The notes below the pieces were generated by a model, which was given only the letters and a program-made list of their open reading frames with translations, made no database searches and had not been told where the DNA came from. From assembly GCF_000017565.1 (NCBI RefSeq), contig NC_009719.1, positions 310,001 through 374,000 on the forward strand: a DNA stretch of 64,000 nucleotides, written 5' to 3'. This stretch comes from Parvibaculum lavamentivorans DS-1. Its GTDB lineage: Bacteria > Pseudomonadota > Alphaproteobacteria > Parvibaculales > Parvibaculaceae. This document shows, in pieces, positions 7,612 through 55,796 of this stretch. Within the stretch, counting starts at the first letter, position 1; the number at the start of each line of letters is the position of its first letter. The translations under genes and the position numbers were made by a program.

Positions 7612-7699
7612 GTTTCATATGTGCCCTGCGGGCGCGCATCTGACAAGCCCGGGCGGTTGCATCAAAACCCTCTTCCGGGATTAAGCGAGTGTTAACGGC

Positions 7700-10032: not shown

Positions 10033-10113
10033 GCGTCTGGCCGCCCCCCGATCCGGCCAAGTGAACCATAGCCCGGGGGGACGCATGAAAAAACCTTTGA
10101 AATCGTTGTCCGT

Positions 10114-11028: not shown

Positions 11029-11068
11029 GAGCTTTCGATCGCCTCCGCTTTCCGCCAGCCGCTGAATT

Positions 11069-32300: not shown

Positions 32301-32789
32301 CTACACAGGGGCATGCGGTGTCAGCTCGTAAAAGCCTGTCGCCGTCACGAAAGTCACATGAAGTCCAGATGGGAAGCGCTGCTTGCCAACAACAATCAGG
32401 ATGAACCCGGGAAGACTGTGCTCGCTTCTCGTGACCATATCCTGAAAGTTGGAAAGGTCAGTATCAGACGGCGATGGCATGCCTTGCGGATGCGTATGCC
32501 AATCGCCAACAAAATGTAGGCCGGCAGCATATCGATCTTCTATCTCTCTCTTCTCAGCAGTTCTGTCAGGATGGTAGTGGTAGCGACCTCGTTTGTCCGT
32601 TGGCCGTGGCCCCGTCGCTTCGACAATACAAACCGCGTCTGCGTCGATTGCAGCGAAGAGTTGACCACCAGCCTCTCTTTTGAGGAGATTTGTTTGCCGA
32701 TGACGCCACATATGCTTCAACGCCGTGGTCTCGATTTCCAAGCGTCCTAGATTGTTCGGCAGTTCGAAGGCGAGCGGAGTGTCAATCAT
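32301..32789 (-). CDS. JAB/JAMM-family deconjugating protease (Cap3-like)
   Basis: This 162-residue metalloprotease has all JAMM residues: Glu39 in REAGGQLF, and WHTHPQGMPSPSDTD supplying His98, His100, Ser108 and Asp111. JAMM proteins of this size cut isopeptide bonds next to ubiquitin-like tails, and Cap3 in type II CBASS reverses the conjugation made by the Cap2 E2-E1 enzyme. Its ATG at 32789 lies inside the last codons of the E2-E1 gene (8-base overlap), so they are coupled. The frame is open further upstream, but those codons overlap the E2-E1 gene heavily and are unlikely to be used. Confidence 0.92.
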   Translation of the reverse strand: MIDTPLAFELPNNLGRLEIETTALKHMWRHRQTNLLKREAGGQLFAAIDADAVCIVEATGPRPTDKRGRYHYHPDRTAEKREIEDRYAAGLHFVGDWHTHPQGMPSPSDTDLSNFQDMVTRSEHSLPGFILIVVGKQRFPSGLHVTFVTATGFYELTPHAPV

Positions 32790-34524
32790 GGACGGGATTG
32801 CATAATGGACATTCGCTTGAATTTTCAATTGGTCGTTGAAATTGCAAGCCTCCCTCGAAGTGACCGCGGAATTCCTTATGTGCCTCACTCCAGTCACCGC
32901 CTAGCTTCTTCAAGCGATGTGTCGAAGTTGCATGGACCCGATGTACGTTCTCGGCAACACGCCCGGTTAAGATGTCGACCGCTAGCTCGGCAGCAATTCC
33001 CTCAGCGTAAGCGATATCAACTGGACCAAAGGGCTGGAAGTAGGCACCACAAGCAGGCTCTGAAACCTCCTCCGCGCCGTCATTCCAAATTGTCTCCGGC
33101 GCAGCTGTATTCCCAGTTTCGTTGAGTAGACATGCGATGCAGGAACTTTGATTGACTATTCCTACGGCGTGGGCTGCCGTGGCATGCTCTTCCATCCAGC
33201 AATAAATAATGGGTGGGACACCACGCACTCGATGTTCCTCGTTCAAAAGCCCTTCGCTCGACCAGTCTCCAATTGCACAGATGATCAAGTCGGACGCCCA
33301 TATCTTCTCCCGAACTTCATCTGATGCGTGTTGCCACGCAGTGTGATGTCCCTCGACCGTCAGGTGGGGAAAGCGTCGTCGAATTTCGTTCGCGAGATCT
33401 AGACTCTTCGATCGTCCAACGGATCGCATTCCCAACACATGCCGACCTACATTTGCCGCCGCAAGTGTCTCCGGATCACAGAGCATCAGCGAACCAACAC
33501 CGGCTTGTGCAAGCCGCACCGCCACATGAGACCCTAGGGCGCCGCAGCCCAAGATCGTGACTTTCTTAGTCAAAGTCTCGGCCAATTCCTCATTCTTGTC
33601 ACGACCATGGATCCATGCCGCATCGGCTCGATTGACGATACTGTGGTTTACGGTCGCATTCTGATACCAATGGGGAATTTTAAAATTCCGGGGAATATGT
33701 TTGGGGCGGAAGCCGTTTAACTTCCGCAGAATACCACCTTCAATGATGATTCCAGTAAGGCCGGTGCCCGTTTCAACGCTTGCGGCCATTACGACGACGC
33801 AGCGCTCGTTGTCGATCGCATGCGTTTCAAGCTTACCCGGCACGTCAGGGTCTACTGCTCGGAGCTTGTCGACGACCAGCTGAAGCGATTCCGGATACGG
33901 AGGAACCCATGGCGCATCGAGACGAATGAAAATACCTTGCGTGAACTGAACCTCAGCGGTTGACCCGCTATTTCTAAGCCAGTGGGTCAGCTGTTCACCG
34001 TTCTCGGCAGCTACGATTTCGTCCTTTCCCCACCATACGGCGATTTCGCCGGCACTTCTTGTCGGCTCCAAGAGTGATTGGATTTTTCGGACAGAAGTAT
34101 CCACGGCCCGATTCCAATAGGAAATAAACTCCCGAGAAAGTTCGGTCGTGCTTGGATCCAGATGAAGGGTTCCGTCGACTAAAACACACGCATCAGCCAG
34201 CGCTACTCGCACTTTCTCGATTGGATCGGTCCAGGAAACAGAGTTCTTCGGCAGACAGAGGACGCCATTCTCCTCCACATGCGGCCACTTCAGATAGCAA
34301 TCTCCTGATCTGTAAGCCACGCGGGGTGGAGAGTATGGAAAATCTGAATCAAGCAGTAGGTGGACTATTCCTTCGCGCGTCTTAAAACCTATGGTGACTT
34401 CCCATCCCTTTCGAATATGAAGCGCCTTGTAGGCAGCACACTCTGTTGGCGACAAAGTTCGCGCCGCATTGCACGTAGCAAGCAACCATTGCTCAACATC
34501 TTTCGCGGATTCGTCAAAATTCAT
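32782..34524 (-). CDS. E2-E1 fusion ubiquitin-transfer-like enzyme (Cap2-like)
   Basis: A 580-residue fusion. Residues 1-140 form an E2-like domain with the likely catalytic Cys90 in NGVLCLPKNS. Residues 322-540 form a ThiF/E1 adenylation domain with the ATP-binding VTILGCGALGSHVA and the LMLCDPETLAAANVGRH segment; Cys492 in SEPACGAYF is the probable E1 thioester cysteine. Two CxxC pairs (Cys462/465 and Cys572/575) would bind zinc as in other E1-like enzymes. Domain order and length match Cap2 of type II CBASS, which joins the C terminus of a cyclase to other molecules. No cyclase is present here; the upstream partner is an MBL-fold protein. Confidence 0.9.
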   Translation of the reverse strand: MNFDESAKDVEQWLLATCNAARTLSPTECAAYKALHIRKGWEVTIGFKTREGIVHLLLDSDFPYSPPRVAYRSGDCYLKWPHVEENGVLCLPKNSVSWTDPIEKVRVALADACVLVDGTLHLDPSTTELSREFISYWNRAVDTSVRKIQSLLEPTRSAGEIAVWWGKDEIVAAENGEQLTHWLRNSGSTAEVQFTQGIFIRLDAPWVPPYPESLQLVVDKLRAVDPDVPGKLETHAIDNERCVVVMAASVETGTGLTGIIIEGGILRKLNGFRPKHIPRNFKIPHWYQNATVNHSIVNRADAAWIHGRDKNEELAETLTKKVTILGCGALGSHVAVRLAQAGVGSLMLCDPETLAAANVGRHVLGMRSVGRSKSLDLANEIRRRFPHLTVEGHHTAWQHASDEVREKIWASDLIICAIGDWSSEGLLNEEHRVRGVPPIIYCWMEEHATAAHAVGIVNQSSCIACLLNETGNTAAPETIWNDGAEEVSEPACGAYFQPFGPVDIAYAEGIAAELAVDILTGRVAENVHRVHATSTHRLKKLGGDWSEAHKEFRGHFEGGLQFQRPIENSSECPLCNPVHD

Positions 34525-36108: not shown

Positions 36109-36336
36109 ATGATGCCTAGCATGCAATTTTCACCAGAGCGTCTACAGGAACTAATCCAGATTCATAAAGAAGAGCACGACGAAGATCTGACGATAGACGA
36201 AGCAAGTGAGATGGGTGCACGCCTCGTCGAACTTTTCACGCTTCTCGCACAACCACTGCCGAGCGAACGTGCCGCACGAGAGGGGAAAGCTACGCAGCCT
36301 CCTTCTCCTGACTCTTCCGCTCCATCATCTCAATAA
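36109..36336 (+). CDS. Small protein typical of recombinase loci
   Basis: A 75-residue acidic protein with the pattern QIHKEEHDEDLTIDEASEMGARLVELFTLL. Proteins with this EEHxEDxTxxEAxEMxxRLVxLF layout are often found beside site-specific recombinases and restriction genes; none has a known function. The last 47 bases overlap the convergent serine recombinase gene. Starts at 36109 or 36121 are both possible. Confidence 0.6.
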   Translation: MMPSMQFSPERLQELIQIHKEEHDEDLTIDEASEMGARLVELFTLLAQPLPSERAAREGKATQPPSPDSSAPSSQ

Positions 36337-37885
36337 CTTCTTTGACGAGCTCTATTGTTTCGATCATTTCCGGGTCGCGTGCATCGTATAAAGTTCGAAC
36401 CTCATACAACCGCGCGCACAGGCTTGAACGACAGACGATATTCGACAGGATGAGGAACGGTTTTCTGGCTTGAAAGCTCAGTTTTTTGTCTGTTAGCACA
36501 AGGTTCAAACCGACCGCCCGGACAATTCTCTGTTTTATTTCGTCGTCACCTTCTTGAAGCCAGAAAATGGCTCTATTGCTAAACGAAATGAGCAAGCGGT
36601 CGGGTTCAAACCGATCTTTTCCATTGTCAGCTTGATGCAGGCGTTCCTTAAGAATCAGCTTTCGCACCTGAAGCCGTTGACGCTCCGTAATGAACTCCGT
36701 GTCATCGATTGTCTCGCGCGTGCGCAGCATAAGCAACGTTGAGAGCATTCTTTCAACTTCTTCCAATTCTCCTTCCGTTGCCTTTGTCTGCAGTGATCTC
36801 TCTTGGTCGCGCCTAGCCGCCGCAGATTGGCGCTCTGCATCTGCCCATCGCTCATACTTTTCGGGCAGCGCGAGGCGGCCGACCTCATTTTCGATCATCG
36901 TCTGGAGATGGTCCGCAGGCACGAAGGGTTGCCGGCACCGGTAGTTCGGCCGACGCTTGGTGCAGTGATAGTAGGAATACGCGCTTCCATATCTGTTGGT
37001 CCGTTCCTCGGCGGTGACCATGAAGCCGCACTCACCACACCGAATAAGGCCGGTAAAGGGGAAGCTGCGCTTTTGGATCACGGGTTTTGCTCTGCCACTC
37101 AGGATATCCTGCACCCGTTGGAATTCCTCCACGGTGACGAGCGGCGCGTGCGCGCCCGGATGAGTTTGTCCCTCCCAGACAACGAGGGCCGCGTAAAAGG
37201 GATTTCGCAGTATGTGATGAACGGCGCTGACCGTCAGGTATCGGCCACCGATACGCTTCTTTTGTACCGTTCGCAGACCCCATTTCTGAGTTTCGCGGCT
37301 CAGCGCCCGCAACGAGTAGTTTCCTGTGAGCGCCAGCTCGAAGAGACGGCGTATCAACGGGAAGCGATCGGGATCCGGGATCGTCGTCTTTGTTGATCGG
37401 TCATTCAGATAACCGATCGGCGCCATGCTCGGCCGCCCACCCCGTTGAACCTTGGCGCGATTTCCGCGCTTCACGTTCTCGCTTAGATTGTCGACATAGT
37501 ATTTCGAGTATCCAAAGATGATCGACAGCATGAACTTCCCTTGCGAGTTGTTCTCGAAGGTGAAGGTGGCGAATTTGAGGTCCTTGAGCGCTTGCCGGTC
37601 GAGCAAATAGATGATGCGGCCGCCATCGATTGAGTTGCGCGCCAGTCGATCCGGATGCCAGGTGATGATGCCTTCCGCCTCGCCGCGCTCGATGCGCCGG
37701 AGCATGTCGTCGAAAACCGGCCGGCCGGGCGCCTTTGCACTGAATGCCTCCAGAAGGACATCGATAATTTCGACACCTTCGTGCCTCTGAAATTTCCCGA
37801 GCAATTCATCGCGCTGGGAGTCGATGGACAGCACCTGGCGATCCTCGGCTTCCGAGGATTTGCGGCAATAGACGAAATATTTCAT
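36290..37885 (-). CDS. Large serine recombinase
   Basis: A 531-residue recombinase. The N-terminal resolvase domain begins MKYFVYCRKSSEAEDRQ with the likely nucleophile Ser10, and includes WHPDRLARNSIDGG. The recombinase domain (RGNRAKVQRGGRPSMAPIGY) and the zinc ribbon starting GLIRCGECGFMV follow, then a coiled coil and a C-terminal region. Large serine recombinases integrate and excise elements, usually with a separate directionality factor. The ATG at 37885 starts the resolvase domain exactly; the longer open frame upstream is not family-like. It is the best candidate for the enzyme that mobilised cargo 1. Confidence 0.93.
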   Translation of the reverse strand: MKYFVYCRKSSEAEDRQVLSIDSQRDELLGKFQRHEGVEIIDVLLEAFSAKAPGRPVFDDMLRRIERGEAEGIITWHPDRLARNSIDGGRIIYLLDRQALKDLKFATFTFENNSQGKFMLSIIFGYSKYYVDNLSENVKRGNRAKVQRGGRPSMAPIGYLNDRSTKTTIPDPDRFPLIRRLFELALTGNYSLRALSRETQKWGLRTVQKKRIGGRYLTVSAVHHILRNPFYAALVVWEGQTHPGAHAPLVTVEEFQRVQDILSGRAKPVIQKRSFPFTGLIRCGECGFMVTAEERTNRYGSAYSYYHCTKRRPNYRCRQPFVPADHLQTMIENEVGRLALPEKYERWADAERQSAAARRDQERSLQTKATEGELEEVERMLSTLLMLRTRETIDDTEFITERQRLQVRKLILKERLHQADNGKDRFEPDRLLISFSNRAIFWLQEGDDEIKQRIVRAVGLNLVLTDKKLSFQARKPFLILSNIVCRSSLCARLYEVRTLYDARDPEMIETIELVKEVIEMMERKSQEKEAA

Positions 37886-38186
37886 ATGCGGAAAAATGTG
37901 GCGCCCTTGAGCGTCTCGCCGATACGTCCCCCAAGTCCACGGTTCAGCTGAATACGAGGCAGGTACTGACACCTTTTCGAGGTGCAACTCAAAAAATGGA
38001 AGACATCGTTCGGTCGACTCGAATCTACCCCATGAGGACGAAACGCGCGAATCGGCGATGTGGATTTCTCGATAGTCACGCTGTCATTCTGAGACCGTCG
38101 ATACTCTTTCGGAAGGTGTGCGGTCTTGCCGGGAAAGCACGAACTCACGCCGTTTCAAACCGCTCATCGACGCTTACAATCGTCCG
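37886..38186. other. Gap between serine recombinase and AAA ATPase genes
   Basis: No gene is supported in these 300 bases. They contain the start regions of the two divergent genes, and composition shifts here from the AT-richer cargo back to backbone. The right end of cargo 1 is probably within it. One reversed copy of the GTGGACTT core seen at 35895 and 36000 occurs near 37928. Confidence 0.4.
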
Positions 38187-44670: not shown

Positions 44671-45252
44671 TCAGGTTAAATTGTGCCACAGTCTGCTTGC
44701 GAATTCCCTCTCTTCGTCGCCAACAGCGTCAACGTAGATAGCAGTAGTCGACAGACGGGAGTGCCCCAACCATTTCTGAACAACACTCAGAGGCACATTC
44801 CGCTGGGTTGCTTCGATACCGAATGCGTGGCGCAGCGCTTTTGGCATTGCATGACTACCCACGATGCCGGCGCTTTCCATAGCCTGCTTTACCCAGCTCC
44901 AAGCGGTGGTTCGTCCGATGCGCCAGACGCGATTTTCGCCTCTAGTGGTACGCGGGCGCGCCCGCGAAAGCTCATGGATCTCGTTCAAATCCCGCAGAAG
45001 TGCTCTTGGCACCGGAATCGATCTGAACACGCCGCCCCTCCTCTTCTTGAGACTTTCGATGATCACAACGCCAGCATCGACATCTACCCGCTCAGGTGTG
45101 AGGGCCAGAATCTCCGAGATCCTTGCGCCGGTGTATGTCAGAACTAGGCAGAAAGTGCGTGCGCTAGGATCCAACCCAGCAGCTGCGGCCACAAACGCCT
45201 CTCTCTCGGCAAGCGTCAGGTACTTTCGACGCCCTTTCTGATCATAAATCAT
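44671..45252 (-). CDS. Short tyrosine recombinase (catalytic domain only)
   Basis: A 193-residue recombinase lacking the N-terminal arm-binding and core-binding domains of the usual 300-residue integrase. Catalytic residues are Arg44 (TGARISE), a Lys in ESLKKRR, Arg141 in KALRHAF (the preceding His of HxxR is Lys138), His164 in WLGHSRLSTT and the nucleophile Tyr173. Its start lies 66 bases from the right 25-bp palindrome. The reduced size and the inverted sites resemble small invertases or element-end recombinases. Confidence 0.9.
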   Translation of the reverse strand: MIYDQKGRRKYLTLAEREAFVAAAAGLDPSARTFCLVLTYTGARISEILALTPERVDVDAGVVIIESLKKRRGGVFRSIPVPRALLRDLNEIHELSRARPRTTRGENRVWRIGRTTAWSWVKQAMESAGIVGSHAMPKALRHAFGIEATQRNVPLSVVQKWLGHSRLSTTAIYVDAVGDEEREFASRLWHNLT

Positions 45253-45433: not shown

Positions 45434-45784
45434 TCATTTGTAGAACGAAGACGTATCTGCGGTGACCTGAGAGACCGTGATAGTTCCGCCATCGTCGCTT
45501 AGTTCGCCTTCAAATTTTCCTGGGAAACTCTCTGATATCGTAATTCCACCATCGTCGTCATCGTAATTTAGCGTGACGTGCCACAAGATAGGGCCGAAGA
45601 AGTGTTTGTCCGTGACGAATATCTCATCCTCAAACGTCTCCAATGAGTCTACGACCGTATTGAATGACAAGACGGATAGGTCTTGCCAAGCATCAGTGGT
45701 GGAGACATCTGTCGCGCGTAATATACGGACGATACGCTCCTTCAAGTCTTGCGCTTTTTCCTCGTCAATCTCCGACATCGCCAC
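45434..45784 (-). CDS. Small acidic hypothetical protein, last gene of the QueC-like operon
   Basis: A 114-116-residue protein with acidic stretches (NYDDDDGGITISE, GELSDDGGTITVS) and predicted beta strands. No family recognised. The GTG at 45784 overlaps the stop of the FRG gene (TAGTG), and an ATG two codons later is equally possible. As the partner of an FRG-domain protein it could be an immunity or antitoxin protein, but that is conjecture. Confidence 0.6.
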   Translation of the reverse strand: MAMSEIDEEKAQDLKERIVRILRATDVSTTDAWQDLSVLSFNTVVDSLETFEDEIFVTDKHFFGPILWHVTLNYDDDDGGITISESFPGKFEGELSDDGGTITVSQVTADTSSFYK

Positions 45785-46584
45785 TATCCAATGATTGTAG
45801 ACCCAATGCCAATCCGTGCCTCATAACGCCACTTCAGCGTTGCACAGAGACCGTCGAGATCTGCCCAAATGTGACTGTCATCGATTCCAAGGCGAAAAAG
45901 GCGCCTCCGAAAGCGTGCACGTAGATGATCTGGAATGGTGAAGCTGTTCTTTTCGAACGCTTCCGGCTCCCAAGGAACATTCGGTTCGGGGTGGACGGAA
46001 AAAAGGCCTCTTTGACTGATGATACGAGGCACACTCTTGGCAGGTAGAAGAAACTGCAACCTAGTCAGATCAAATGGATCCGTTTGCACCTTTGTGTCGA
46101 CAAGCTCTTCGTCGCTCAAACTGTGCGCGTAGATGACGGAGCCATCCTTGGCGCTTTTGGCATCGACAGTTGATACCGCGAAGAATGCGGCAACTAGAGG
46201 ATTGGTCGTCCAGTCGAGCAGTCGGGTAGGGAGACCATGATGCTGGGCCAAGGCGAGCCATTCCCAGTCGTCTGTAGGTCTCACGGTTAGAAAAAATCCT
46301 GCAGATTTCTGAAAGGCGCGAAACACCCTAATTTCGTCTGTTAGGTCGTAATTTGGCAGGCGCCCTAAACTGGGAATGCACTTGTGCAGCCGCGAGGCAC
46401 ATCCGCGAAATATCCACCTCGTATGACTCCGTTCATCTATGAATTTCAGGAAGTTCATCCAGACGTCCCTAGCTTCCTTGGCGGTGCTAGCGAGCTCCGC
46501 GGTAGATTTGGGGGCGTGTTGACGTGGTCGCCGGTCGGCGCCACGCCGTCGTCTTGAGGCAGATAAATGGGGCAACGTCTTCAT
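45784..46584 (-). CDS. FRG-domain protein
   Basis: The 266-residue protein contains the FRG domain: WIFRGCAS near residue 57 and LALAQHHGLPTRLLDW with NPLVAAFFA after it. FRG domains are found in toxins, phage-defence and abortive-infection proteins, and are thought to modify or cleave nucleotide-type substrates. The N-terminal 35 residues are basic and low-complexity. The ATG overlaps the stop of the second PfkB-like gene (ATGA), so it belongs to the QueC-like operon; it is a plausible effector. Confidence 0.85.
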   Translation of the reverse strand: MKTLPHLSASRRRRGADRRPRQHAPKSTAELASTAKEARDVWMNFLKFIDERSHTRWIFRGCASRLHKCIPSLGRLPNYDLTDEIRVFRAFQKSAGFFLTVRPTDDWEWLALAQHHGLPTRLLDWTTNPLVAAFFAVSTVDAKSAKDGSVIYAHSLSDEELVDTKVQTDPFDLTRLQFLLPAKSVPRIISQRGLFSVHPEPNVPWEPEAFEKNSFTIPDHLRARFRRRLFRLGIDDSHIWADLDGLCATLKWRYEARIGIGSTIIG

Positions 46585-47750
46585 TGGTCGAAACCCCGAA
46601 GCGTAAGGTAAAGTGCTGTTGTGTAGTCGGTAGTTATATGTGCGTTTGGAAGGATGTTCTGAACACCGCCCGGAGCGTCGGGCCAGTATACAACCGTTGG
46701 TAATCCCGACGTGATCTCGGAATATCTGCCAATCATATCCTGATCCCAGCGAGGGCCGACCAAAATCAGGAATGACGTTGTATCTTCGGTTCCTCCGGTG
46801 AAGTCTCCAAATAGGTCCACCGTAGCCTTGCCGCCCAGCTCGACGATCCAGTCGGCCGTGTGCAGTAGGAGCGTCTCGAACTCCAGCATGCCCTGCCCCA
46901 ACAAACGTACGACACCTGCCTGCGGCATCCCTGGCGTTGCCTTCGGAAGTCGATCTTTCGGAGGTAGGGGAAGTCGAGGACCGTCAACGAAGTACGCTAC
47001 GCACTGTGCTGCATATTCTGCCGCGTTCATTGGCGAACTCTTCTCTTCGGCCCATGCATGCGCAAAGGCCGCGGCAAAAACATCCCCGGAGCCGATCCTG
47101 AAATAACTCTCTGCTGCGACTGGTGGTATTCTTAGAGGATTGTCGTCGCTGGTATAAAGTCGAGCTCCACCCAGCCTATCCTTGAGGAGAAGAAGAAATT
47201 CACCTCGTGGTTTCGTGTCAAATAACTCGGTGATTGCCTCTCTCAATGAGCTAGAACGGTCATCTTCATCGCACTGCAGCCCGGCTAGCGAGAATAGCTC
47301 CCGCTCTGTTAAAATGAGAGCGAGGTTCTCTGCCTCTGACCCGTTGGCCGCAAAGGGTGCTGGCTTGGGTGACTGTGGATCATAGACCACGCGATTACCG
47401 CTTACTCGGGCATCTCCCTCAATTAATCCGAATCTGAGAACGGACTGTCCTTCAACTTCGAGTCGCTGCGCGGCCTCAGTTGGCTCAGTGCAGGCTGCAA
47501 GCTCGAATGGGTGGAGATAGTCAAACGTCACGCCCTTTTCAATTTGTGTTAACTGTCGCGCGATACCAAAGGAGTCCAAAGTTGCGACAATATCGTTGTG
47601 CCAAGGCTCTGCAGCATAAGCATGCAATTCCACATTGATTGTCACCGAACTAAGCGCAACTGCAGAGCGCAGTCCGGACCCGTAAAGTTGATTCCACCGA
47701 GGAAAGCGGCACCTTTCCGCGTATATGCCACCGGCAATCAGCATAGTCAT
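46581..47750 (-). CDS. PfkB-like carbohydrate/nucleoside kinase protein A
   Basis: A 389-residue protein. Residues 1-265 follow the PfkB fold: it starts MTMLIAGGIYAERCRFP, and RIGSGDVFAAAFAHAW at 218-233 holds the family's GxGD catalytic motif (GSGD 220-223). Residues 280-389 form a further Rossmann-like domain (FLILVGPRWDQDMIGRY) at the place where the paralogue at 48726-49910 has a nucleoside-deoxyribosyltransferase. The ATG overlaps the stop of the upstream small gene (ATGA), as in the paralogous pair. Phosphorylation of a nucleoside or modified base ribonucleoside is inferred. Confidence 0.8.
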   Translation of the reverse strand: MTMLIAGGIYAERCRFPRWNQLYGSGLRSAVALSSVTINVELHAYAAEPWHNDIVATLDSFGIARQLTQIEKGVTFDYLHPFELAACTEPTEAAQRLEVEGQSVLRFGLIEGDARVSGNRVVYDPQSPKPAPFAANGSEAENLALILTERELFSLAGLQCDEDDRSSSLREAITELFDTKPRGEFLLLLKDRLGGARLYTSDDNPLRIPPVAAESYFRIGSGDVFAAAFAHAWAEEKSSPMNAAEYAAQCVAYFVDGPRLPLPPKDRLPKATPGMPQAGVVRLLGQGMLEFETLLLHTADWIVELGGKATVDLFGDFTGGTEDTTSFLILVGPRWDQDMIGRYSEITSGLPTVVYWPDAPGGVQNILPNAHITTDYTTALYLTLRGFDQ

Positions 47751-48091
47751 CTTCTCCGTACAAAGACCATGCATCGGGTTGGGGACGCCGCTTGTACGAC
47801 CGCGACGTATGATTCCCCTTGACGAAGGCAGCCTATTAGTCGAGCCAAGCCACGAAAGGCAGCTAGTGTTCCGGCGACTTCTCCTCTTTCGTCCGCGCAA
47901 ACAACGCTAGTCACCGCGCCATTCGTCTTCAGGGTGACTAGCAACTCGTCTCCAAAAGAAAGGGAGGAGGTGATCTCGGGTTGGACACCAACCAAATCCA
48001 CGGTGAAAGAGAGGTCACAATCGTCCGCTCCTTGGGGATCTTCTGGTTGGTAGGGGTTCCTGTTGCCCTTGTTAACAGCGTACCCGCCCAT
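47747..48091 (-). CDS. Small beta-rich protein A (paralogue of 49907-50248)
   Basis: A 114-residue protein beginning MGGYAVNKGN, a flexible 20-residue tail, then a compact domain. It is clearly homologous to the protein at 49907-50248: both share D-x-C-D, LSFGDELLVT versus LHIGDSLNVT, SVVC versus SAVC, and GLARLIGCLRQGESYVAVV versus GLVALINCLERGESYTVVV (each within 20 residues). It starts 44 bases after queC and overlaps the next PfkB-like gene. No known family recognised. Confidence 0.75.
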   Translation of the reverse strand: MGGYAVNKGNRNPYQPEDPQGADDCDLSFTVDLVGVQPEITSSLSFGDELLVTLKTNGAVTSVVCADERGEVAGTLAAFRGLARLIGCLRQGESYVAVVQAASPTRCMVFVRRR

Positions 48092-48135
48092 GAGTTACCT
48101 CCGCCGATATTGCGCTAGTTCTGGCTTCGCACCAG

Positions 48136-48729
48136 CTAAGATGTGCCTTGCGGGAATGCCTCGTCGACTACCTCTCTGTGCTTGATACAACCACTGCATT
48201 GGCCACAAGCATATCTGTGCAAGTGACATGAGAACGTCACTCCAATTAGTTCTCGTGGAAAACTCGATAGCTTGAGAAGCTCGGTGCTGGTGAGGTTCTG
48301 GGCCGGAGCGGTTACTGTGACACAGCCCTCCTGAAGCCGCATTAGGGCATTCAATGTTTGAATAAAGCGAACGCTTCCGTCCGCGTGGAGATCGGTGGCA
48401 ACCGTCCCTATCATGAGTTCTCTGAGGCCTATCGGCTGCAAGAGCATCGCAGCTAGTGTGACAAGCATCTGGTTCCTATAAGGCCAAAACTCCGGCGCTG
48501 CGCCCCCAAGGGCTGTTTCCCGTCCTGCCATCGATCCGGAGCCCAAGGAGGATAAATCCACGCTTATAAGTTTATGTTCGAGGTGAAGTTCGCTACAGAT
48601 AGCCCGAGACGCTGCGGCTTCGCCAAGTGCCGCTTGTTGACCATAGTCCAGGGTCACGCAGATGTCTGGGCGCGTCCAGTGCGCCAGCGCAGACGAGTCG
48701 ATTCCGCCCGAAAGTAACAAAGCTTTCAT
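48136..48729 (-). CDS. QueC-like 7-deazaguanine synthase homologue
   Basis: The 197-residue protein has the PP-loop ATP-binding motif SGGIDS at residues 7-12, WPYRNQ at the QueC substrate-binding position (P-x-R-N), and the zinc site Cys168, Cys175, Cys178, Cys181 in SCHLHRYACGQCSGC. QueC converts carboxy-deazaguanine to the nitrile via an adenylate. Homologues in type IV CBASS (Cap9) and in QatABCD (QatC) act in phage defence. The ATG overlaps the stop of the PfkB/NDT fusion gene. The context, with no queuosine genes, argues for the defence type instead of tRNA modification. Confidence 0.88.
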   Translation of the reverse strand: MKALLLSGGIDSSALAHWTRPDICVTLDYGQQAALGEAAASRAICSELHLEHKLISVDLSSLGSGSMAGRETALGGAAPEFWPYRNQMLVTLAAMLLQPIGLRELMIGTVATDLHADGSVRFIQTLNALMRLQEGCVTVTAPAQNLTSTELLKLSSFPRELIGVTFSCHLHRYACGQCSGCIKHREVVDEAFPQGTS

Positions 48730-49910
48730 CGCATGGCCGCCCACATGGCGTGATAGACCGCCGTGCATATGTCGCCGACAATATGACAATCTGTTCCTTC
48801 GAGCATAGTGAGGCTCTCCGGTCTGGGCAGTTCAGATAAGATAACAACCGGGATTTTGCAGCGGCGCGCGTATCCAATCTCAAAGAGTGTGCCGGCATCT
48901 TCGCCATCCAAGACTGCTAAAATCGAACCAGCCTCCTCAAGACCCTTCAGATCGCGGGTGGCGATATCTTTGGACGTTCCTGACGAACCAACATTGTGGA
49001 GGGGAGAAAAGACGCGACCGCCTACCGAACGCAGCCCGTTGCGTATTTCTTCTACCGCCCACCGCTGACCGAGGTTGAAAAATGGTGCGGCTACATAAAT
49101 ATGCCGTCCCTTATATTCACCGAATACAGGGGTTTGGGGCTGGCAGTCCGCAAGGGAAATTTGGGCGGCACGGCTGCCCACATAGTGAGACACTGCGGAG
49201 GAAGCCCGATGGGCTGCCTCAACCGGAGAGGTGCGTTGTTCGGCCCAGAGTGCTGCAAATATCGCAGAGAAGATGTCACCGGAGCCGATTTTGAATACGT
49301 CACTGGACCGATAGGAGGGAATGGGTGTTGTTGTCCCTGCATCCCAAACGGTGGCCCCATGTGGTCCACGTTTTACTACTATGACTTCTGCGCCAGATAT
49401 ATCACAGAGTTTCTCGGCTGCAGCGTCACCATTAGTCCCGGTGCTCAACTCCAATTCAGTTTCGTTGAGGACGATGGCAAGCTTGTTCGCTTTTGAACCA
49501 TTCTTGCTGAAGTTGAGCGCCTCACTCCAGTGCTGAGGATCGTAGACAGCTCTATCAGCCTTGACGATTGCATCACCCTCAACAAAACCGAAGCGTAAAA
49601 CTGCTGCTCCTTCGACTCGATGGGGAGTTGCTACGTGGGCGATTGGGTGCGGTGTGAGGACCGGTACCGAGAGTGGATGGAAATAGGAGAAGGTGATGTC
49701 TGCCTCGATCTCAACGAGATGAGGATCTACTCCGAAGTTGGTCATTGAGATGCGTACATCTTCGGCCCATTCTCGTGAAGCGTATGCATATAAGGCGCTG
49801 CCGGGTGAGATTCTTGATATCGCTGCCGCTGCGCGACCCCCAGAACCAAAGATGCGAGACCAATTCGGCCAAACGCATTCTTCGCGATATACGCCCCCCG
49901 CCACTATCAT
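48726..49910 (-). CDS. PfkB-like/nucleoside 2-deoxyribosyltransferase fusion (protein B)
   Basis: A 394-residue fusion. Residues 1-255 are PfkB-like, starting MIVAGGVYREECVWP and carrying KIGSGDIFSAIFAALW with GSGD at 209-212. Residues 270-390 match the nucleoside deoxyribosyltransferase fold: HIYVAAPFFN, AVLDGEDAG with Asp335 and TLFEIGYA with the likely nucleophile Glu344. NDT-like domains cut or exchange the base of a deoxynucleoside. The fusion could hydrolyse or sense nucleotides. The ATG overlaps the stop of the upstream small gene. Confidence 0.85.
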   Translation of the reverse strand: MIVAGGVYREECVWPNWSRIFGSGGRAAAAISRISPGSALYAYASREWAEDVRISMTNFGVDPHLVEIEADITFSYFHPLSVPVLTPHPIAHVATPHRVEGAAVLRFGFVEGDAIVKADRAVYDPQHWSEALNFSKNGSKANKLAIVLNETELELSTGTNGDAAAEKLCDISGAEVIVVKRGPHGATVWDAGTTTPIPSYRSSDVFKIGSGDIFSAIFAALWAEQRTSPVEAAHRASSAVSHYVGSRAAQISLADCQPQTPVFGEYKGRHIYVAAPFFNLGQRWAVEEIRNGLRSVGGRVFSPLHNVGSSGTSKDIATRDLKGLEEAGSILAVLDGEDAGTLFEIGYARRCKIPVVILSELPRPESLTMLEGTDCHIVGDICTAVYHAMWAAMR

Positions 49911-50248
49911 CGAGAATTCCTGCCGCCTGCCACGTGGCAGTAGGTAGGCCCCAGCCTGGTCACTACGACAGTGTATGACTCCCCCCGTTCCAAGCAATTG
50001 ATTAGTGCGACTAAGCCTGGGAACGCGGTTAGCGAGCCGACAATCTCGTCGTCACGCGAAACACATACCGCAGAGCGTATTTGCCCGCGTCGATGGATTG
50101 TCACGTTGAGGGAATCGCCGATATGAAGGTTCCGAAGGACATCCACATTCACCCCCTCAAGATCAATGTCGATCTCGATGTCGCACGGGTCTACGTCTTC
50201 GGGAGGGGGACGACGAGGTGTCGAATCGGGTGGAAGTTTGCCTGACAA
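49907..50248 (-). CDS. Small beta-rich protein B (paralogue of 47747-48091)
   Basis: A 113-residue protein that begins MSGKLPPDSTPRRPPPEDV, a disordered Pro-rich tail, followed by the same domain as its paralogue (D-P-C-D, GDSLNVT, SAVC, GSLTAFPGL, CLERGESYTVVV). Each copy directly precedes and overlaps a PfkB-like gene. A conserved M-x-G start on an otherwise divergent tail is notable. Function unknown. Confidence 0.75.
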   Translation of the reverse strand: MSGKLPPDSTPRRPPPEDVDPCDIEIDIDLEGVNVDVLRNLHIGDSLNVTIHRRGQIRSAVCVSRDDEIVGSLTAFPGLVALINCLERGESYTVVVTRLGPTYCHVAGGRNSR

Positions 50249-50318
50249 CGAATCTATCTCCCCAAGTAAAGGAGATCTGATTATGGCTACAAACTGCGGC
50301 TGCGAACAGTAGAGAGTG

Positions 50319-51041
50319 TTACCGTGTTAGTGTGCGCATTTCACGCCACATCAACGCATCCAGCAGCGAAGCGGGGACTTGGAGAGCGCTCGCAAACTCA
50401 AGGAAGCGCATCTCAAGGCTTTGGTAATCACGAGGAAGTGTCACTTGTGTTGGGAACAGACCGATGATCTGCCCTGCTCGAAGGACGTGTATGTCCAAAA
50501 TTGCCACCTCGTTCGAACCTGTCCAATTGCGAACAATCCAAGACGCTGTCTTGGGGCCCACCCCGGGGAGTGACATCAGCTCTGATCGTAGTTCTAGGGG
50601 CGCCTCAGTTGAAAACGTCCGCGAGCCCAGAAATGCAATAGCCGCCGCAACTCTAGCCGCGCGCTGACGAGGAAATCTGTACCTAACTTGGCGGCCCGCA
50701 ACTGAGAGAGGCTTCCTTAGAAGGAGCTCAATTTCCTCTGCCGAAGGAGAGCTCTGGGGGGCCAGTACATCGGCCCGTTTCAGGCGATTCCATGCGGCGC
50801 GGTTGATTTCCATCTTCACGCCGTAACCCCCAAGTAGGCAGAAAACAACATCTTCAACTAGCGGCGTGCCAGTCGGGCTGACGTAGTTCTCTGCAAAGGG
50901 ACCTTCCTGCAGCGCTCGTTCAGCCCAAAATGCAGGGCTTGGCACCCATTCGGGGCGACCGAATTTAACACCCGGGACAACCTCATCATCAGGAGCAAAT
51001 TCGGAGCGGTAGAAAATGGTGGCATGCTTCATGTTATGCAT
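50319..51041 (-). CDS. OGG1-type HhH-GPD DNA glycosylase/lyase
   Basis: The 240-residue protein has the helix-hairpin-helix SLPGVGPKTASW with the presumed lyase Lys164 and the catalytic Asp183 in AILDIHVLR, both at the positions used by 8-oxoguanine glycosylases. It is diverged from housekeeping MutM or OGG. OGG-like proteins are accessory genes (Cap8) of type IV CBASS. It is the first gene of the QueC-like operon, 70 bases upstream of small protein B. Starts at 51041 or 51032 are possible. Confidence 0.85.
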   Translation of the reverse strand: MHNMKHATIFYRSEFAPDDEVVPGVKFGRPEWVPSPAFWAERALQEGPFAENYVSPTGTPLVEDVVFCLLGGYGVKMEINRAAWNRLKRADVLAPQSSPSAEEIELLLRKPLSVAGRQVRYRFPRQRAARVAAAIAFLGSRTFSTEAPLELRSELMSLPGVGPKTASWIVRNWTGSNEVAILDIHVLRAGQIIGLFPTQVTLPRDYQSLEMRFLEFASALQVPASLLDALMWREMRTLTR

Positions 51042-51060
51042 TTATATGCATTTATATGCA
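51034..51060. promoter_or_regulatory. Three-unit repeat overlapping both divergent start codons
   Basis: TATGCA occurs three times with starts exactly 10 bases apart, at 51035, 51045 and 51055, joined by TTTA spacers. The repeats cover the ATG of the glycosylase gene (51041, leftward) and of the XRE regulator gene (51056, rightward), which are only 14 bases apart. One-turn spacing suggests an operator bound by the regulator, and binding would block both starts. Confidence 0.55.
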
Positions 51061-51364
51061 AGAAGGCAACGGGAAATCCTTGATTGAAGCGGTGCGGGCA
51101 CGCAAGCGTGAGTTGGGTATCTCCCAGCTCTCGCTTGCCAAACGTCTTGGTGTAAGCCAAGGGCATCTCTCGAAGGTGTTGTCAAAAAAAGCCCTAGTTT
51201 CCGACAAAATTAATGGAAGAATGCTCAAGTTTCTCGAGAGGATTGAAGAGGGAGAGCATGTGACCACGGATCAATTGGAGCAGGAAATCCTTTCCGCGCT
51301 TAGGGAGTCTCCAACCTTCCGGACGCTGGTAATAAGTGCATTAGAAATGCATAAAAAAGCATAG
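51056..51364 (+). CDS. XRE-family regulator of the QueC-like operon
   Basis: A 102-residue protein with helix-turn-helix ISQLSLAKRLGVSQGHLSKVLS and a helical C-terminal half. It is transcribed away from the eight-gene operon and is the obvious candidate for its repressor. The start at 51056 lies within the repeated operator-like sequence. Confidence 0.85.
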   Translation: MQEGNGKSLIEAVRARKRELGISQLSLAKRLGVSQGHLSKVLSKKALVSDKINGRMLKFLERIEEGEHVTTDQLEQEILSALRESPTFRTLVISALEMHKKA

Positions 51365-51501: not shown

Positions 51502-51729
51502 ATGGCTCAGTACCAAAAGCAGGTCGTATCCAAAAAGGAGCTGAAGACTGTCTGTGGCATCCCGTATTCCGGCCAGCATATTGCGCGGCTCGAAGCGGCC
51601 GGGGCGTTCCCCAAACGGATCAGACTCGGCCAGAATCGTGTTGTGTGGTTGCTGTCGGAAGTCGAGGCATGGCTGGACGCGCGGATCGCATTGCGAGACG
51701 CGCAAACTACCGCTGACACTTCCTTCTGA
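51502..51729 (+). CDS. AlpA-like excisionase/regulator
   Basis: A 75-residue winged-helix protein of the AlpA/phage regulatory family: YSGQHIARLEAAGAFPKRIRLGQNRVVW is the DNA-binding helix and wing (quoted in part: HIARLEAAGAFPKRI). AlpA proteins activate integrase or excision genes of islands. The ATG has GGGAG upstream. It is the first backbone gene right of cargo 2 and is followed by a strong terminator. Confidence 0.85.
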   Translation: MAQYQKQVVSKKELKTVCGIPYSGQHIARLEAAGAFPKRIRLGQNRVVWLLSEVEAWLDARIALRDAQTTADTSF

Positions 51730-51738
51730 AGGGTCCTT

Positions 51739-51772
51739 GGGGACCGGGTCGCTCCCGGTCCCCATCTTTTTT
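51739..51772 (+). terminator. Rho-independent terminator after alpA-like gene
   Basis: GGGGACCGGG (51739-51748) pairs with CCCGGTCCCC (51754-51763) and is followed by a run of T (51767-51772). Confidence 0.85.
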
Positions 51773-52063
51773 AGGGCACCAGCAGTCGTCTGCCCGGGCG
51801 ATAGGCTGGGGGATACAGAGGGCGATACCGTATCGCCCTTCCGCCCACGGAATTCTTCCAAATATCCAAACAGAATCAATCCGTTGCGCCTGCTGCTGTC
51901 ATTTATCCGCAGTCCGACTTATTACTCCGTATCCTGCCTAATAACCCACCCCTGCCACCCAATCTCCTTGACTCTGCGGCCTTCCTTCCGCTTCGATCTT
52001 TTCCGTATCCGTGACAGTGCGACGTCGAGTGATCTCTTCAGACAAACAGGGGGGGGAGCGCCC
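51773..52063. other. Gap upstream of the 127-codon gene
   Basis: No gene is supported here. There is a G-run (GGGGGGGAG) just before the next ATG, which may act as its ribosome-binding site. Otherwise I see nothing to assign. Confidence 0.4.
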
Positions 52064-52444
52064 ATGCGCGTGGCGATCGAGCATAGGGAAGCGGTATCGG
52101 GTCTCATCAAAAAAGTGCCGCAGGTCGAGGTGACGGCGGTGGTCCAGTTCTCGGAAGAGGAGCGGGCGATCATCAACAGCTGGAATCTCGGCGACGTGAT
52201 CGTCGTCGAGCGGCAGATGGATGCGCAGCGGGCGGCCAAGCATAAGGGCGATCAGTATGGCGCCCAGGCGCCTTACGAGCATCTGCGGATCGGGCAACTG
52301 ACCCAAGGCCCGGACCGGTATCTCTTCGACACCCCGCATGACGCCAAACTCTACCAGGAACAACTGGTGGAGGGCCTCAAGACTATCAAAGCCTATCTCG
52401 CGAGTTGCGCGAGCCTTGCCGAGCCGCAAGTCTTCGAGATCTGA
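52064..52444 (+). CDS. Conserved hypothetical backbone protein
   Basis: A 126-residue soluble protein (VTAVVQFSEEERAIINSW, IGQLTQGPDRYLF). It is only three bases upstream of the TraD-like gene and has the same composition, so the two are one operon. No family recognised. It may be an accessory of the coupling ATPase. Confidence 0.65.
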   Translation: MRVAIEHREAVSGLIKKVPQVEVTAVVQFSEEERAIINSWNLGDVIVVERQMDAQRAAKHKGDQYGAQAPYEHLRIGQLTQGPDRYLFDTPHDAKLYQEQLVEGLKTIKAYLASCASLAEPQVFEI

Positions 52445-52447
52445 GGG

Positions 52448-54676
52448 GTGAGCGGCCTCGATTTCACGAAGCCGGAGAATGTCGTTCTCGGCGCCATCGT
52501 TGCGGCGTTCTGGCTTTTCGCGCTGATCTTCCTCGCGCCCTTCGCGATCCTGATTGCGGTCGCAGGCCTTGGCTACTGGCTCGTGACCGCGATCTATAAC
52601 CGGCCGGCGGCCCGGATGGCGCGGGGCCGCGCGGACGCCGAGCGGCTTTACGAGGCGGCGCTCGCGCTCCAGAAGGCGAAAGGTTTCCCGGAGACGGAAG
52701 CCTTCCGCTCGCGGGTCTGGGGTCGGCTCTACGAGCTTCTCGACGAGCGCTATCCCTCGCTTGGTATCGCCGCGGAAATGGTGACGCTCATCGAGGTGCT
52801 GTATCGGGCGGAGGGCTTCACCGGCGAGATTCCGAAGCCGCCTGAGGAGGTGGGAGAGATCGAGCTTGCGCGTTACCGCGACCGGATCGGGTATTTGACC
52901 GCGAAGTTCGGCCGGCCGGAGGTGATCGAGCGGGCCTATGAGACGCTGCTGCTTGCGCTTTGGGATTTCTGTCGGCTCCTGCCACCGAACGCGCTCCAGA
53001 CCCATGACGAGCTTCTGGAAGCCGCCGAAGCCGGCCGCATGACCGGCCCCTTCGCGATCCGGCTGATGGAGGCACTACCCAAAACAGGCGAGGCGGTCGA
53101 AGCGCTCGCGTTCTCGTTCTACCGGCGGGACGCAATCGAGGCCGGGCTCTTTGCCGGGCTCCGGGAGCGGCTGTCGCGGAACCAGCATGGTGCTTCGGGC
53201 CTGCCTTATGAGCCCCGCTTCTACGATTCCCCGAAGCTCGTGAACCCCTCGGACCATGAAGGCAGCCCTCACGAGATCGTCCATGCCTATTTGAAGGAGA
53301 CGCCTTTCGAGGGGCTCTTCTCGGCGGGCATCCCCCTGGAGATCCCGGACAGCGCCCGGTTCGAGCATCACTGGATCGTGGCGGGGTCGGGCCATGGCAA
53401 GAGCCAGACGCTCCAATACCTCATCGCCCATGACCTCGACCGGGTCGCGCGAGGGGAGGGGAGCGTCGTCGTCATCGATTCCCAAGGCGACCTCATCCGC
53501 AACATTGCGGGTCTGAAGATATTCGCGCCCGGCGAGCCGCTTGCCGGCAAGTTCTGCCTGATCGATCCGACCGATATCGAATATCCGCTCGCGCTCAATC
53601 TCTTCGACGCCGGTATGGAGCGGATCGGCTCCTATCCACCGCTTGAGCGCGAGCGCCTCGTGAACGGGATTCTCGAACTCTATGATTTCGTGCTGGGGTC
53701 GCTCCTTTCGGCGGAGCTCACGCAGAAGCAGAGTGTTATCTTCCGCTATATCACGCGGCTGATGCTCCATATCCCGGATGCGACCATTCATACGTTCCGG
53801 GAGTTGATGGAGCCCAAAGGCTACGAGAAGTATCAGGGCCATATCGAAAAGCTCGACGGCACGGCCCGGGCCTTTTTCGAGACGGAATTCAACAGCAAGC
53901 AGTTCGAGGACACCAAGCGGCAGGTGGTGCGCCGCCTCTGGGGCATTCTCGAGAACCGGACCTTCGAGCGCATGTTCTCGCATCCAAGAAACAGGCTCGA
54001 TCTCTTCAGCGAGATGAATGAAGGCAAGGTGATCCTGATCAATACGGCGAAGGACCTCCTGAAGCAGAACGGCACCGAAATCTTCGGCCGCTTTTTCATC
54101 GCGCTCATCGCGCAAGCCGCGCAGGAGCGCGCGACGCTCGCCCGGGGCGACCGGCTGCCCACCTTCGTCTATGTCGACGAATGCGCCGACTATCTCGACC
54201 AGAATGTCTCGGTGATCCTCGAACAGGCGCGGAAGTTCAATGTGGGCATGGTGCTCGCGCATCAATATATCGGTCAGTTGTCCCCGAAACTGCAGGAGAG
54301 CTTCGCCGCGAATACCAGCATCAAGTTTGCGGGCGGCGTTTCGGAGAAGGATGCCCGCGCCTTGGCTCACATGCTCCGGACAACGCCAGAGTTCATCACC
54401 GCGCAGGGCAAGGGGCAGTTCGCCGTCTCGATCCGCAATATGACCCAGGGCGCGATCTCGCTCGGCTTTCCCTTCGGCCATCTCGAAGCCCTTCCACGCA
54501 TGACTGCGGCAGAGGCCGAAGCCGTCCGCGGCGAGATGCGGGCGCGCTACGCCGTTCACTGGGAGGAGGTCGAGCGGGAGAGGGAAGAGAAGGAAACATC
54601 GAAGAAGGATGCCGAACCGGTGACACCCGCAATCCGATCCGCTCCGATCGACACGGCGCCGTCGAGCGACTGGTAG
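52448..54676 (+). CDS. TraD/VirD4-like coupling ATPase (long form)
   Basis: The 742-residue protein has two N-terminal membrane helices (about residues 12-48), then a soluble region and a P-loop ATPase domain with Walker A GSGHGKSQ (residues 313-320, Lys318), a VIDSQGDLIRNI segment, and Walker B FVYVDECADYL with Asp577 and Glu578. This is the architecture of type IV coupling proteins that feed DNA to a secretion channel. No relaxase or channel genes are visible nearby. The start is GTG at 52448. Confidence 0.85.
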   Translation: MSGLDFTKPENVVLGAIVAAFWLFALIFLAPFAILIAVAGLGYWLVTAIYNRPAARMARGRADAERLYEAALALQKAKGFPETEAFRSRVWGRLYELLDERYPSLGIAAEMVTLIEVLYRAEGFTGEIPKPPEEVGEIELARYRDRIGYLTAKFGRPEVIERAYETLLLALWDFCRLLPPNALQTHDELLEAAEAGRMTGPFAIRLMEALPKTGEAVEALAFSFYRRDAIEAGLFAGLRERLSRNQHGASGLPYEPRFYDSPKLVNPSDHEGSPHEIVHAYLKETPFEGLFSAGIPLEIPDSARFEHHWIVAGSGHGKSQTLQYLIAHDLDRVARGEGSVVVIDSQGDLIRNIAGLKIFAPGEPLAGKFCLIDPTDIEYPLALNLFDAGMERIGSYPPLERERLVNGILELYDFVLGSLLSAELTQKQSVIFRYITRLMLHIPDATIHTFRELMEPKGYEKYQGHIEKLDGTARAFFETEFNSKQFEDTKRQVVRRLWGILENRTFERMFSHPRNRLDLFSEMNEGKVILINTAKDLLKQNGTEIFGRFFIALIAQAAQERATLARGDRLPTFVYVDECADYLDQNVSVILEQARKFNVGMVLAHQYIGQLSPKLQESFAANTSIKFAGGVSEKDARALAHMLRTTPEFITAQGKGQFAVSIRNMTQGAISLGFPFGHLEALPRMTAAEAEAVRGEMRARYAVHWEEVEREREEKETSKKDAEPVTPAIRSAPIDTAPSSDW

Positions 54677-54815
54677 GGAGGCAGTTTACGGCTATGCGTT
54701 TTCGGTAGCCCGAAAATTTTCACCCTCACCTCGGGAAACGTTCTCGAACATAGTGGTTCGCTCCTGAACATGGTGCACGTTTCCGGAGAAGACAAAGAGT
54801 GCTACCGCTTCGGCC

Positions 54816-55796
54816 ATGGACCGGTCGAAACGCAGATCTCGCATGAAGCGGCAGAAGAGAGGAAAGCGCCTTGCTTTGACTCCCCGCGATCTCAATATTT
54901 TCATTTTACTCGAACGCTATCGCTATCTCCGCTCCACGTTCATCCATGCCTTTGTCGGTGGACGATCGGTCACACGGTTCAAGGAACGGCTCGGCAATCT
55001 CTATCACGAGGGCGGATATCTGAATCGACCCGAGCGGCAGTGGGAGACAGCGCATTCCCGCTACCTGCCGGTTGTCTATGAGAATGCCGACCTCGCCGGA
55101 AATATCCTGGCCGAAGATGGTCTGCTGGAACCGGCCGTCCCGCACATGCCCTATGGAGCAAGCGGGGAGGGCCGGCAATTCTCACATTCCCTGATGATCT
55201 GCGAGACGCTCGCCTCTATCGAGTTGCAAACGATTGGACGCCCGGATGTGCGTTTCGTTGCCTGGCCGGAAATTCTCGCCAAGGCGCCGGAAGCGACGAG
55301 ACACTCGATCTTTCCGCTTCGCTTTCCGATTCCCTGTTCATCCCCGGATCAACACAACAAAGGAATTCCGTATAGAGGCTATATCGTTCCGGACGCCGTT
55401 TTCGGGTTGGAATATCTCATTGGAGCGTCGAAATATTATCGGTTTTTCGCTCTCGAAGCCGATCGAGGGACAATGCCCATTGTCCGGGCGAAGGCTGGGC
55501 AATCTACCTATCTCGCCAAGCTTTCACTCTATGAAGAACTTCTTGCTACCGGCGCGCTTCGGTCCCATTTGGGTATCCCGAATCTCCTCGTTCTGACGGT
55601 CACCGCGTCTGAGGGTCGGAAGAGACATATTATGTCGGCATTGTCGAAGCGCACCGGCGAACATGCGCCGTTTCTGTTCAGCGTCGCGACGAGGAAGCTG
55701 CCTTACGAAGATGGCTGTCCGCCGGAATCTCTCTCTCGCGAACCGTGGCAACGCATCGATCATGCTCCGTTGGATATTCTGGACGCCGGAGTGTGA
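54816..55796 (+). CDS. Replication-relaxation family protein
   Basis: The 326-residue protein begins with a basic tail and RLALTPRDLNIFILLERYRYL, the winged-helix start typical of the replication-relaxation (RepRelax) family of plasmids and integrative elements. The later IVPDAVFGLEY and KYYRFFALEADRGTMPI segments match the restriction-endonuclease-like core of that family. It acts in plasmid replication or mobilisation by family description. ATGs at 54816 and 54843 are both possible. It is the last island gene. Confidence 0.8.
   Translation: MDRSKRRSRMKRQKRGKRLALTPRDLNIFILLERYRYLRSTFIHAFVGGRSVTRFKERLGNLYHEGGYLNRPERQWETAHSRYLPVVYENADLAGNILAEDGLLEPAVPHMPYGASGEGRQFSHSLMICETLASIELQTIGRPDVRFVAWPEILAKAPEATRHSIFPLRFPIPCSSPDQHNKGIPYRGYIVPDAVFGLEYLIGASKYYRFFALEADRGTMPIVRAKAGQSTYLAKLSLYEELLATGALRSHLGIPNLLVLTVTASEGRKRHIMSALSKRTGEHAPFLFSVATRKLPYEDGCPPESLSREPWQRIDHAPLDILDAGV

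Follow-up and report, generated by a model that had tools for sequence, protein, structure and literature searches.

The best described relatives of the gene set considered here use a QueC-like enzyme in antiviral immunity. In type IV CBASS, the QueC-like protein Cap9 joins CDG to Gly2 of the CD-NTase, which starts with MGGS, and in this way attaches 7-deazaguanine, and QatB of the qatABCD system requires its MGTS start (PMC13279940). This N-terminal deazaguanine tagging is a recently found modification; type IV CBASS is the only system in which it has been shown, and for Qat it is suspected. In July 2026, a pairing of QueC-like genes with fusions of a PfkB kinase-like domain and a nucleoside 2-deoxyribosyltransferase (NDT) was described as 'Cluster 4' of PF06508, for which the authors suggest purine salvage (Libby et al. 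2026, PMC13329287). The operon described here lies at positions 45,434 to 51,364 of a 64,000-nucleotide stretch of Parvibaculum lavamentivorans DS-1 (NC_009719.1, positions 310,001 to 374,000; hereafter the window) and combines this pairing with an OGG-type protein, two small proteins and putative effectors. It is a member of a widespread, so far unnamed defence-type system, and the set is real and conserved. From sequences, structural models and analogy, we lean modestly towards the view that this system, of which the operon is one branch, works in defence by attaching a nucleobase to the N-terminus of a protein. The case draws on computed features, namely the gene set, the tail and the fold likeness of the small proteins, the active sites and the association with defence genes. 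What is new is the HIRAN-like fold and the M-[S/G/T/A]-G start of the small protein, together with the proposal that the system is a variant of QueC-based protein tagging. The features of the operon are as follows.

51056-51364, plus strand: divergent XRE-type helix-turn-helix (HTH) regulator (HTH_3, 8.3e-7), with a homologue in 50 related loci including the window
51035-51060, no strand: operator-like repeat TGCATATAAA-TGCATATAAA-TGCATA between the XRE and OGG starts (direct sequence reading)
50319-51041, minus strand: OGG-type HhH DNA glycosylase/lyase-like protein (Ogg-HhH, 7.6e-12)
49907-50248, minus strand: small protein B, HIRAN-like protein 1, with the tail M-S-G-K, a candidate tag acceptor (TTG start, GGGGAG 9 nt upstream)
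48726-49910, minus strand: PfkB kinase-like and NDT fusion, PfkB-NDT (PfkB 5.3e-8, NDT 7.1e-13)
48136-48729, minus strand: QueC-like ATP-dependent enzyme of 197 aa (PF06508 Cluster 4; QueC 1.3e-22), the predicted tail ligase
47747-48091, minus strand: small protein A, HIRAN-like protein 2, with the start M-G-G-Y, a candidate tag acceptor (AlphaFold and Foldseek)
46581-47750, minus strand: second PfkB with a degenerate NDT, PfkB2 (A1 profile, 1.2e-66)
45784-46584, minus strand: FRG-domain protein, a predicted effector (FRG, PF08867, 4.5e-25; PADLOC PDC-S15, 3.7e-71)
45434-45778, minus strand: predicted pPIWI-associating nuclease-like protein, a second predicted effector (PF18166, 4.4e-21)

The eight minus-strand genes and the divergent XRE gene had been recognised in an initial annotation made from the letters and their reading frames, and all are confirmed by sequence reading and Pfam matches; with corrected starts, the gene order runs from the OGG-type glycosylase to the PF18166 nuclease as listed. 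That annotation had described the genes as packed with overlapping starts and stops, which holds for the ATGA overlaps at four junctions (B/PfkB-NDT, PfkB-NDT/QueC, A/PfkB2 and PfkB2/FRG) and fails at OGG/B (gap of 70 nt), QueC/A (gap of 44 nt) and FRG/last gene (5 nt apart). Its 'small acidic protein' turns out to match the predicted nuclease PF18166, its second PfkB-like protein has a C-terminal domain in the NDT position that lacks the catalytic Glu, and its small proteins A and B were found without their common family, their HIRAN-like fold or their tag-site-like N-terminus. The block was also rightly called AT-richer: GC content at 43-52 kb is 49-55%, against about 62-66% over most of the window. 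The TGCATATAAA repeat in the divergent promoter region is a possible XRE site, judging from its sequence.

Like type IV CBASS, the operon sets a QueC-like (Cap9) and an OGG-like protein (Cap8-like by its Ogg-HhH match) beside a protein with an M-G/S-G start, its QueC is small (about 185-200 aa), and the partner is a base-exchange enzyme. Unlike type IV CBASS, it carries the tail on a HIRAN-like small protein, has PfkB-NDT in place of TGT (Cap10), and uses other effectors. Both the CD-NTase and TGT are absent among the ten scanned proteins of the window operon, and its identification as type IV CBASS was hence rejected; the suggested kinship with the QueC/OGG accessory set of that system, minus the cyclase, is nevertheless borne out at conserved loci. 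The resemblance to qatABCD lies in a QueC-family enzyme whose partner begins with a conserved MG(T)S and has a tail predicted to be disordered. However, QatC is about 400 aa long with extensions and a remodelled pocket while the QueC-like protein here has 197 aa, and QatB is all-helical whereas the small protein here has a beta fold. As neither the QatA ATPase nor the QatD TatD nuclease occurs among the operon proteins, Qat was rejected as well. With Cluster 4, the operon shares the CH(x)5CxxCxGCxK and SGGxDS motifs, the PfkB-NDT neighbour (about 89% there) and a nearby HTH gene; the YGQ motif is present with a spacing counted as YGQ(x)5E, against YGQ(x)6E in that study, and the results text of that study, in the part consulted, names no small protein, tail, OGG or effectors (PMC13329287). 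No description of the full gene set was found in the openly accessible literature, the reach of the search stopping short of subscription papers and most preprints. The earlier statement that no named system has this gene set thus stands for the full set, and fails for the QueC/PfkB-NDT association, which PMC13329287 already reports. The HIRAN domain (HLTF, Rad5) resembles the small protein in predicted fold; the small protein stands alone, with ~110 aa, an N-terminal tail and about 14% identity.

A profile search with PfkB-NDT returned 227 relatives in species genomes, of which 80 were kept, and 5 near-full-length ones among 78 viral-contig matches, and 9 plasmid loci were added. The analysed set is 94 loci, consisting of the window and L001-L094 without L086, where the contig end cuts the PfkB gene. 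Beside PfkB-NDT, 93 of the 94 loci have a QueC-like gene, 92 a small protein of ~110 aa and 86 an OGG-type protein; short contigs could account for some of the missing OGG genes. The QueC start sits almost always at the PfkB-NDT stop. Because the same set and order are kept at other loci, the operon is not a chance assembly. The carriers include alpha-, beta- and gammaproteobacteria, Geobacter, Myxococcota, Acidobacteriota, Cyanobacteria (with a metagenome-assembled genome, MAG, of Melainabacteria), an Eremiobacterota MAG, a Bacteroidota MAG and haloarchaea. Occurrence is patchy, with 4 of 289 genomes of the class carrying the system and further copies on plasmids. Across these 289 genomes the small protein occurs solely beside PfkB-NDT and not as an unlinked single gene. 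Protein distances correlate between the small protein and QueC (rho 0.64) and between QueC and PfkB (rho 0.71), values that 0 of 500 permutations reach, although such a correlation is expected from linked genes and is alone no proof of interaction. Phage records yielded a single partial NDT match and nothing more. Conservation in the same order and a place in defence islands had been set as tests in the initial annotation; the order is conserved in the survey of the 94 loci, and the surroundings are mobile and rich in defence genes: 83 flanking open reading frames (ORFs) gave PADLOC matches to 94 families at 1e-10, including dGTPase, Wadjet JetD, Druantia methylase and DUF4297, as compared to 4 families for 83 control ORFs. 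This comparison counts families, not proteins, and draws its controls from 4 genomes, and it is therefore best taken as a strong trend rather than as a calibrated test.

Small proteins A and B belong to one family (E 8e-28). In the AlphaFold model of small protein A (pLDDT 88.8), residues 1-22 are disordered and are followed by a beta fold, most of whose core exceeds 94. Foldseek matched this model to HIRAN domain structures of HLTF, both DNA-bound and DNA-free (prob 1.00, TM 0.5-0.61), and also to lp_0118. As searches with PDB profiles and Pfam gave nothing useful on the homology of the small protein, the HIRAN assignment rests on the fold. The model thus suggests a protein that folds like the DNA-end-binding HIRAN domain, and DNA binding is predicted on this ground. 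A partial PUA_4 match of L005 was rejected, as it covered 22 residues in one protein.

Besides Met1, the invariant or near-invariant positions of the family are Gly3 in the tail and, in the core, two cysteines, one glycine and one leucine. The M-[S/G/T/A]-G start occurs in 91 of 95 non-redundant small proteins and in 58 of the 61 below 60% identity, compared with 3.4% of ORF starts generally. Since a start choice guided by the motif could bias this count, ORFs with one possible start were counted separately, and 25 of 26 have it. Glycine occupies position 3 in 58 of 61 sequences against 32% glycine elsewhere in the tail (p about 2e-25, which is optimistic since the sequences are related). Conservation in the tail is highest at residues 2-3 and is not spread along it.

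The same kind of start recurs on other proteins encoded beside QueC-like genes. For example, the CD-NTase of L177 starts with MGGSGGGFFSN and the HIRAN-like protein of L093 with MGGSGGGFSPS. Likewise, the TIR proteins in this position start with MGGGGGG (L175, L176), MGGGSSG (L006) and MGGSSTG (L094). These last four loci, three on rhizobial plasmids and L094 from the viral collection IMG/VR, share with the operon a PfkB with degenerate NDT, OGG and a QueC-like protein, and bear the tail on a ThsB-like TIR protein. A TIR protein precedes OGG in L006 and L175, and in L006 a TIR protein has a weak TGT match (0.0014). The reading of the M-[SGTA]-G tail as a tag site is based on the similar starts of the Cap9-modified CD-NTase and of QatB, and on this recurrence on unrelated proteins.

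The enzymes of the operon look active from their sequences. The QueC-like protein keeps SGGxDS, YGQ, RN, the pocket Asp and the zinc cysteines in CH(x)5CxxCxGCxK; the pocket Asp, which reads the guanine edge, is invariant, and profile matches are to canonical QueC (2pg3, 4e-23) and Cap9 (9nto, 9e-19). In the OGG-type protein, catalytic Lys164 and Asp183 correspond to a Lys/Asp pair found in 100% of 87 homologues. Similarly, alignment columns show Asp212 of the PfkB part and Glu344 of the NDT part in every one of the 91 first copies of PfkB-NDT that could be aligned. The second PfkB copies retain the PfkB Asp in 16 of 17 cases, and their C-terminal domain at the NDT position is without the catalytic Glu.

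The mechanism that we infer covers the tagging reaction, the base, the sensing, the activation and phage as the target, and it would proceed in four steps. First, the HIRAN-like small proteins would lose their initiator Met, so that Ser2 or Gly2 of the flexible tail is exposed. Second, the QueC-like enzyme would adenylate a carboxylated guanine-like base and link it to the exposed amine, as Cap9 does on the CD-NTase. Third, the tagged tail would be held or processed by the OGG-type protein and by PfkB-NDT, which stands where type IV CBASS has the TGT-like Cap10, while the HIRAN-like body would sense DNA such as free or damaged phage DNA ends. Fourth, infection would alter the complex and free the effector, here FRG and the pPIWI-type nuclease, both of which may be tied to the second HIRAN-like/pseudo-NDT pair. 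Handling of a guanine-like base had been proposed in the initial annotation for nucleotides or proteins with FRG as effector; the conserved M-[SGTA]-G tails favour proteins, and FRG does not hold as a general effector, being present in only 17 of the 94 loci. Tentatively, and with less confidence than in tagging as such, these sequences and models could define a third, large QueC-based immune class, in which the base on the N-terminus of a DNA-end-sensing HIRAN-like protein is the handle for NDT and OGG, the tag is interchangeable among CD-NTase, TIR and HIRAN-like partners, and the base is not CDG in some hosts. What is predicted is hence a far wider tagging family with unrelated partners (HIRAN-like, TIR, CD-NTase) and with the exact residues named, a specific alternative to the purine-salvage guess for the whole QueC cluster. 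If true, it would amount to a general nucleobase-tail code in prokaryotic immunity. The base identity and the roles of the OGG, PfkB, NDT and TGT folds in immunity become testable, some carriers being apparently without the usual CDG pathway.

Several observations weigh against the tagging proposal. Residue 2 is mostly Ser, while Gly is the acceptor in the characterised case; in the QueC pocket, His replaces the stacking Tyr in 97%; the Pfam HIRAN profile matched none of 54 small-protein members, the likeness being one of fold alone; and the flexible tail may simply be a linker. The source of the base is a further point. In favour of tagging, a canonical queC-queE-queD-queF cluster is present in the window genome (searches confirmed queE and queD, and reading queF), and canonical QueC was found in most of the 18 carrier genomes tested. 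However, two of these 18, G040 and G289, are without detectable canonical QueC, QueD and QueE, though a divergent QueE could escape the models, and a third, G291, has no canonical QueC and no clear QueE. G289 holds L010, which is among the closest window-type loci. Because of G040 and G289, CDG is not to be assumed as the base; in these genomes the base would be a different one or come from outside the cell, unless the system is silent.

Among the alternatives, defence without protein tagging survives best and is still judged unlikely. The tail would then be a linker or a signal for Met removal or stability, and the QueC-like enzyme would make a free modified base for OGG and NDT to insert into, or remove from, phage DNA or the dNTP pool. 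The tail is indeed Gly/Ser-rich throughout (32% Gly), OGG, NDT and the Dam-type methyltransferase of 22 loci act on DNA or deoxynucleosides, and DNA modification of the preQ0 type is known in other systems. Yet the conservation peaks at residues 2-3, the start is like those of proteins that QueC enzymes are known to modify and is seen again on TIR and CD-NTase proteins, and no DpdA-type DNA transglycosylase was identified among the operon proteins.

Nucleoside salvage or modified-nucleotide metabolism, in which QueC-like, PfkB and NDT would work on small molecules with the small protein as an accessory subunit, is improbable. In its favour, the PfkB and NDT folds are those of nucleoside enzymes and their active-site residues are invariant (91/91), and purine salvage is what the Cluster 4 study suggests (PMC13329287), a point that also counts against tagging. 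However, salvage fits poorly with occurrence in 4 of 289 class genomes, defence-rich flanks and swappable FRG, Mrr and TIR proteins, and it leaves unexplained the invariant N-termini on HIRAN-like and TIR proteins and the SagB peptide dehydrogenase of the commonest branch. A covalent bridge, with NDT/OGG swapping the protein-bound base onto deoxyribose and so joining the HIRAN-like protein to DNA ends or nucleotides, is very improbable: the system does unite a base-to-protein ligase, a base-exchange NDT, a base-excision protein with a Schiff-base Lys and a DNA-end-binding-like fold, and the position of NDT is filled in CBASS and L006 by TGT, which is likewise a base-exchange fold, but such a bridge has no precedent, Cap10 is reported to bind and not to transfer the tagged N-terminus, and OGG and NDT are possibly tag-binding folds only.

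The loci fall into branches that differ in their further genes, read as swappable effectors, with SagB-like, Mrr-like or TIR proteins at other loci where the window has FRG and the nuclease. The commonest (56 loci) encodes a 'nitroreductase' matching SagB-family peptide dehydrogenases (NCBIfam, below the curated cutoff), and a peptide dehydrogenase of this type suggests peptide chemistry. In 22 loci, OGG comes together with a Dam-type methylase. The window branch comprises 17 loci, many of them from close Methylobacterium relatives, in which a second small protein, a second PfkB and FRG stand instead of SagB; these three genes occupy the identical set of 17 of the 94 loci and never occur with SagB. 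Of the 17 FRG-type loci, 10 also encode the PF18166 nuclease. In Rhizobium/Agrobacterium loci L001 and L002 a Mrr-like endonuclease is in the effector place. FRG has been classed in the ADP-ribosyltransferase superfamily (PMC9503650), and it is possibly an NADase. The assignment rests on that source, as a structure search with the predicted FRG model (pLDDT 73) found no significant PDB fold match.

Single loci depart from the common plan. In L046, patatin and CD-NTase-like (SMODS) genes lie directly downstream of QueC (9804-11674), the only such locus of the 94. A CD-NTase that belonged to the locus elsewhere would have spoken against a cyclase-free system; since this one is without an MG start, it is read as probably a neighbouring CBASS. 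The sole locus without QueC, L037 of a Dyadobacter MAG, also has a small protein without the M-[SGTA]-G start, the joint absence being a single case. After its PfkB-NDT, in the QueC position, it has an adenylosuccinate-synthetase homologue (7609-10365), an enzyme which also joins an amine to a purine; searches for homologues of this PurA variant gave no match in a further 344 genomes of the same class, nor in viral contigs. The Haloarcula small protein (L005, 5369-6004) apparently consists of two tandem HIRAN-like units behind one MGGGGSS tail.

In the window, the operon is followed on one side by a short tyrosine integrase (44671-45252, minus strand) and on the other by an AlpA-like regulator, a coupling-protein-like ATPase and a replication-relaxation protein (51502-55796, plus strand). 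From their sequences, the genes flanking both sides probably belong to a mobile element that carries the operon. About 10 kb from the operon lie a JAB peptidase and an E1-E2 fusion (32301-34524, minus strand; PADLOC E1-E2, 1e-162), which, by sequence matches, appear to form a ubiquitin-like conjugation cassette of defence type next to a serine recombinase (36290-37987).

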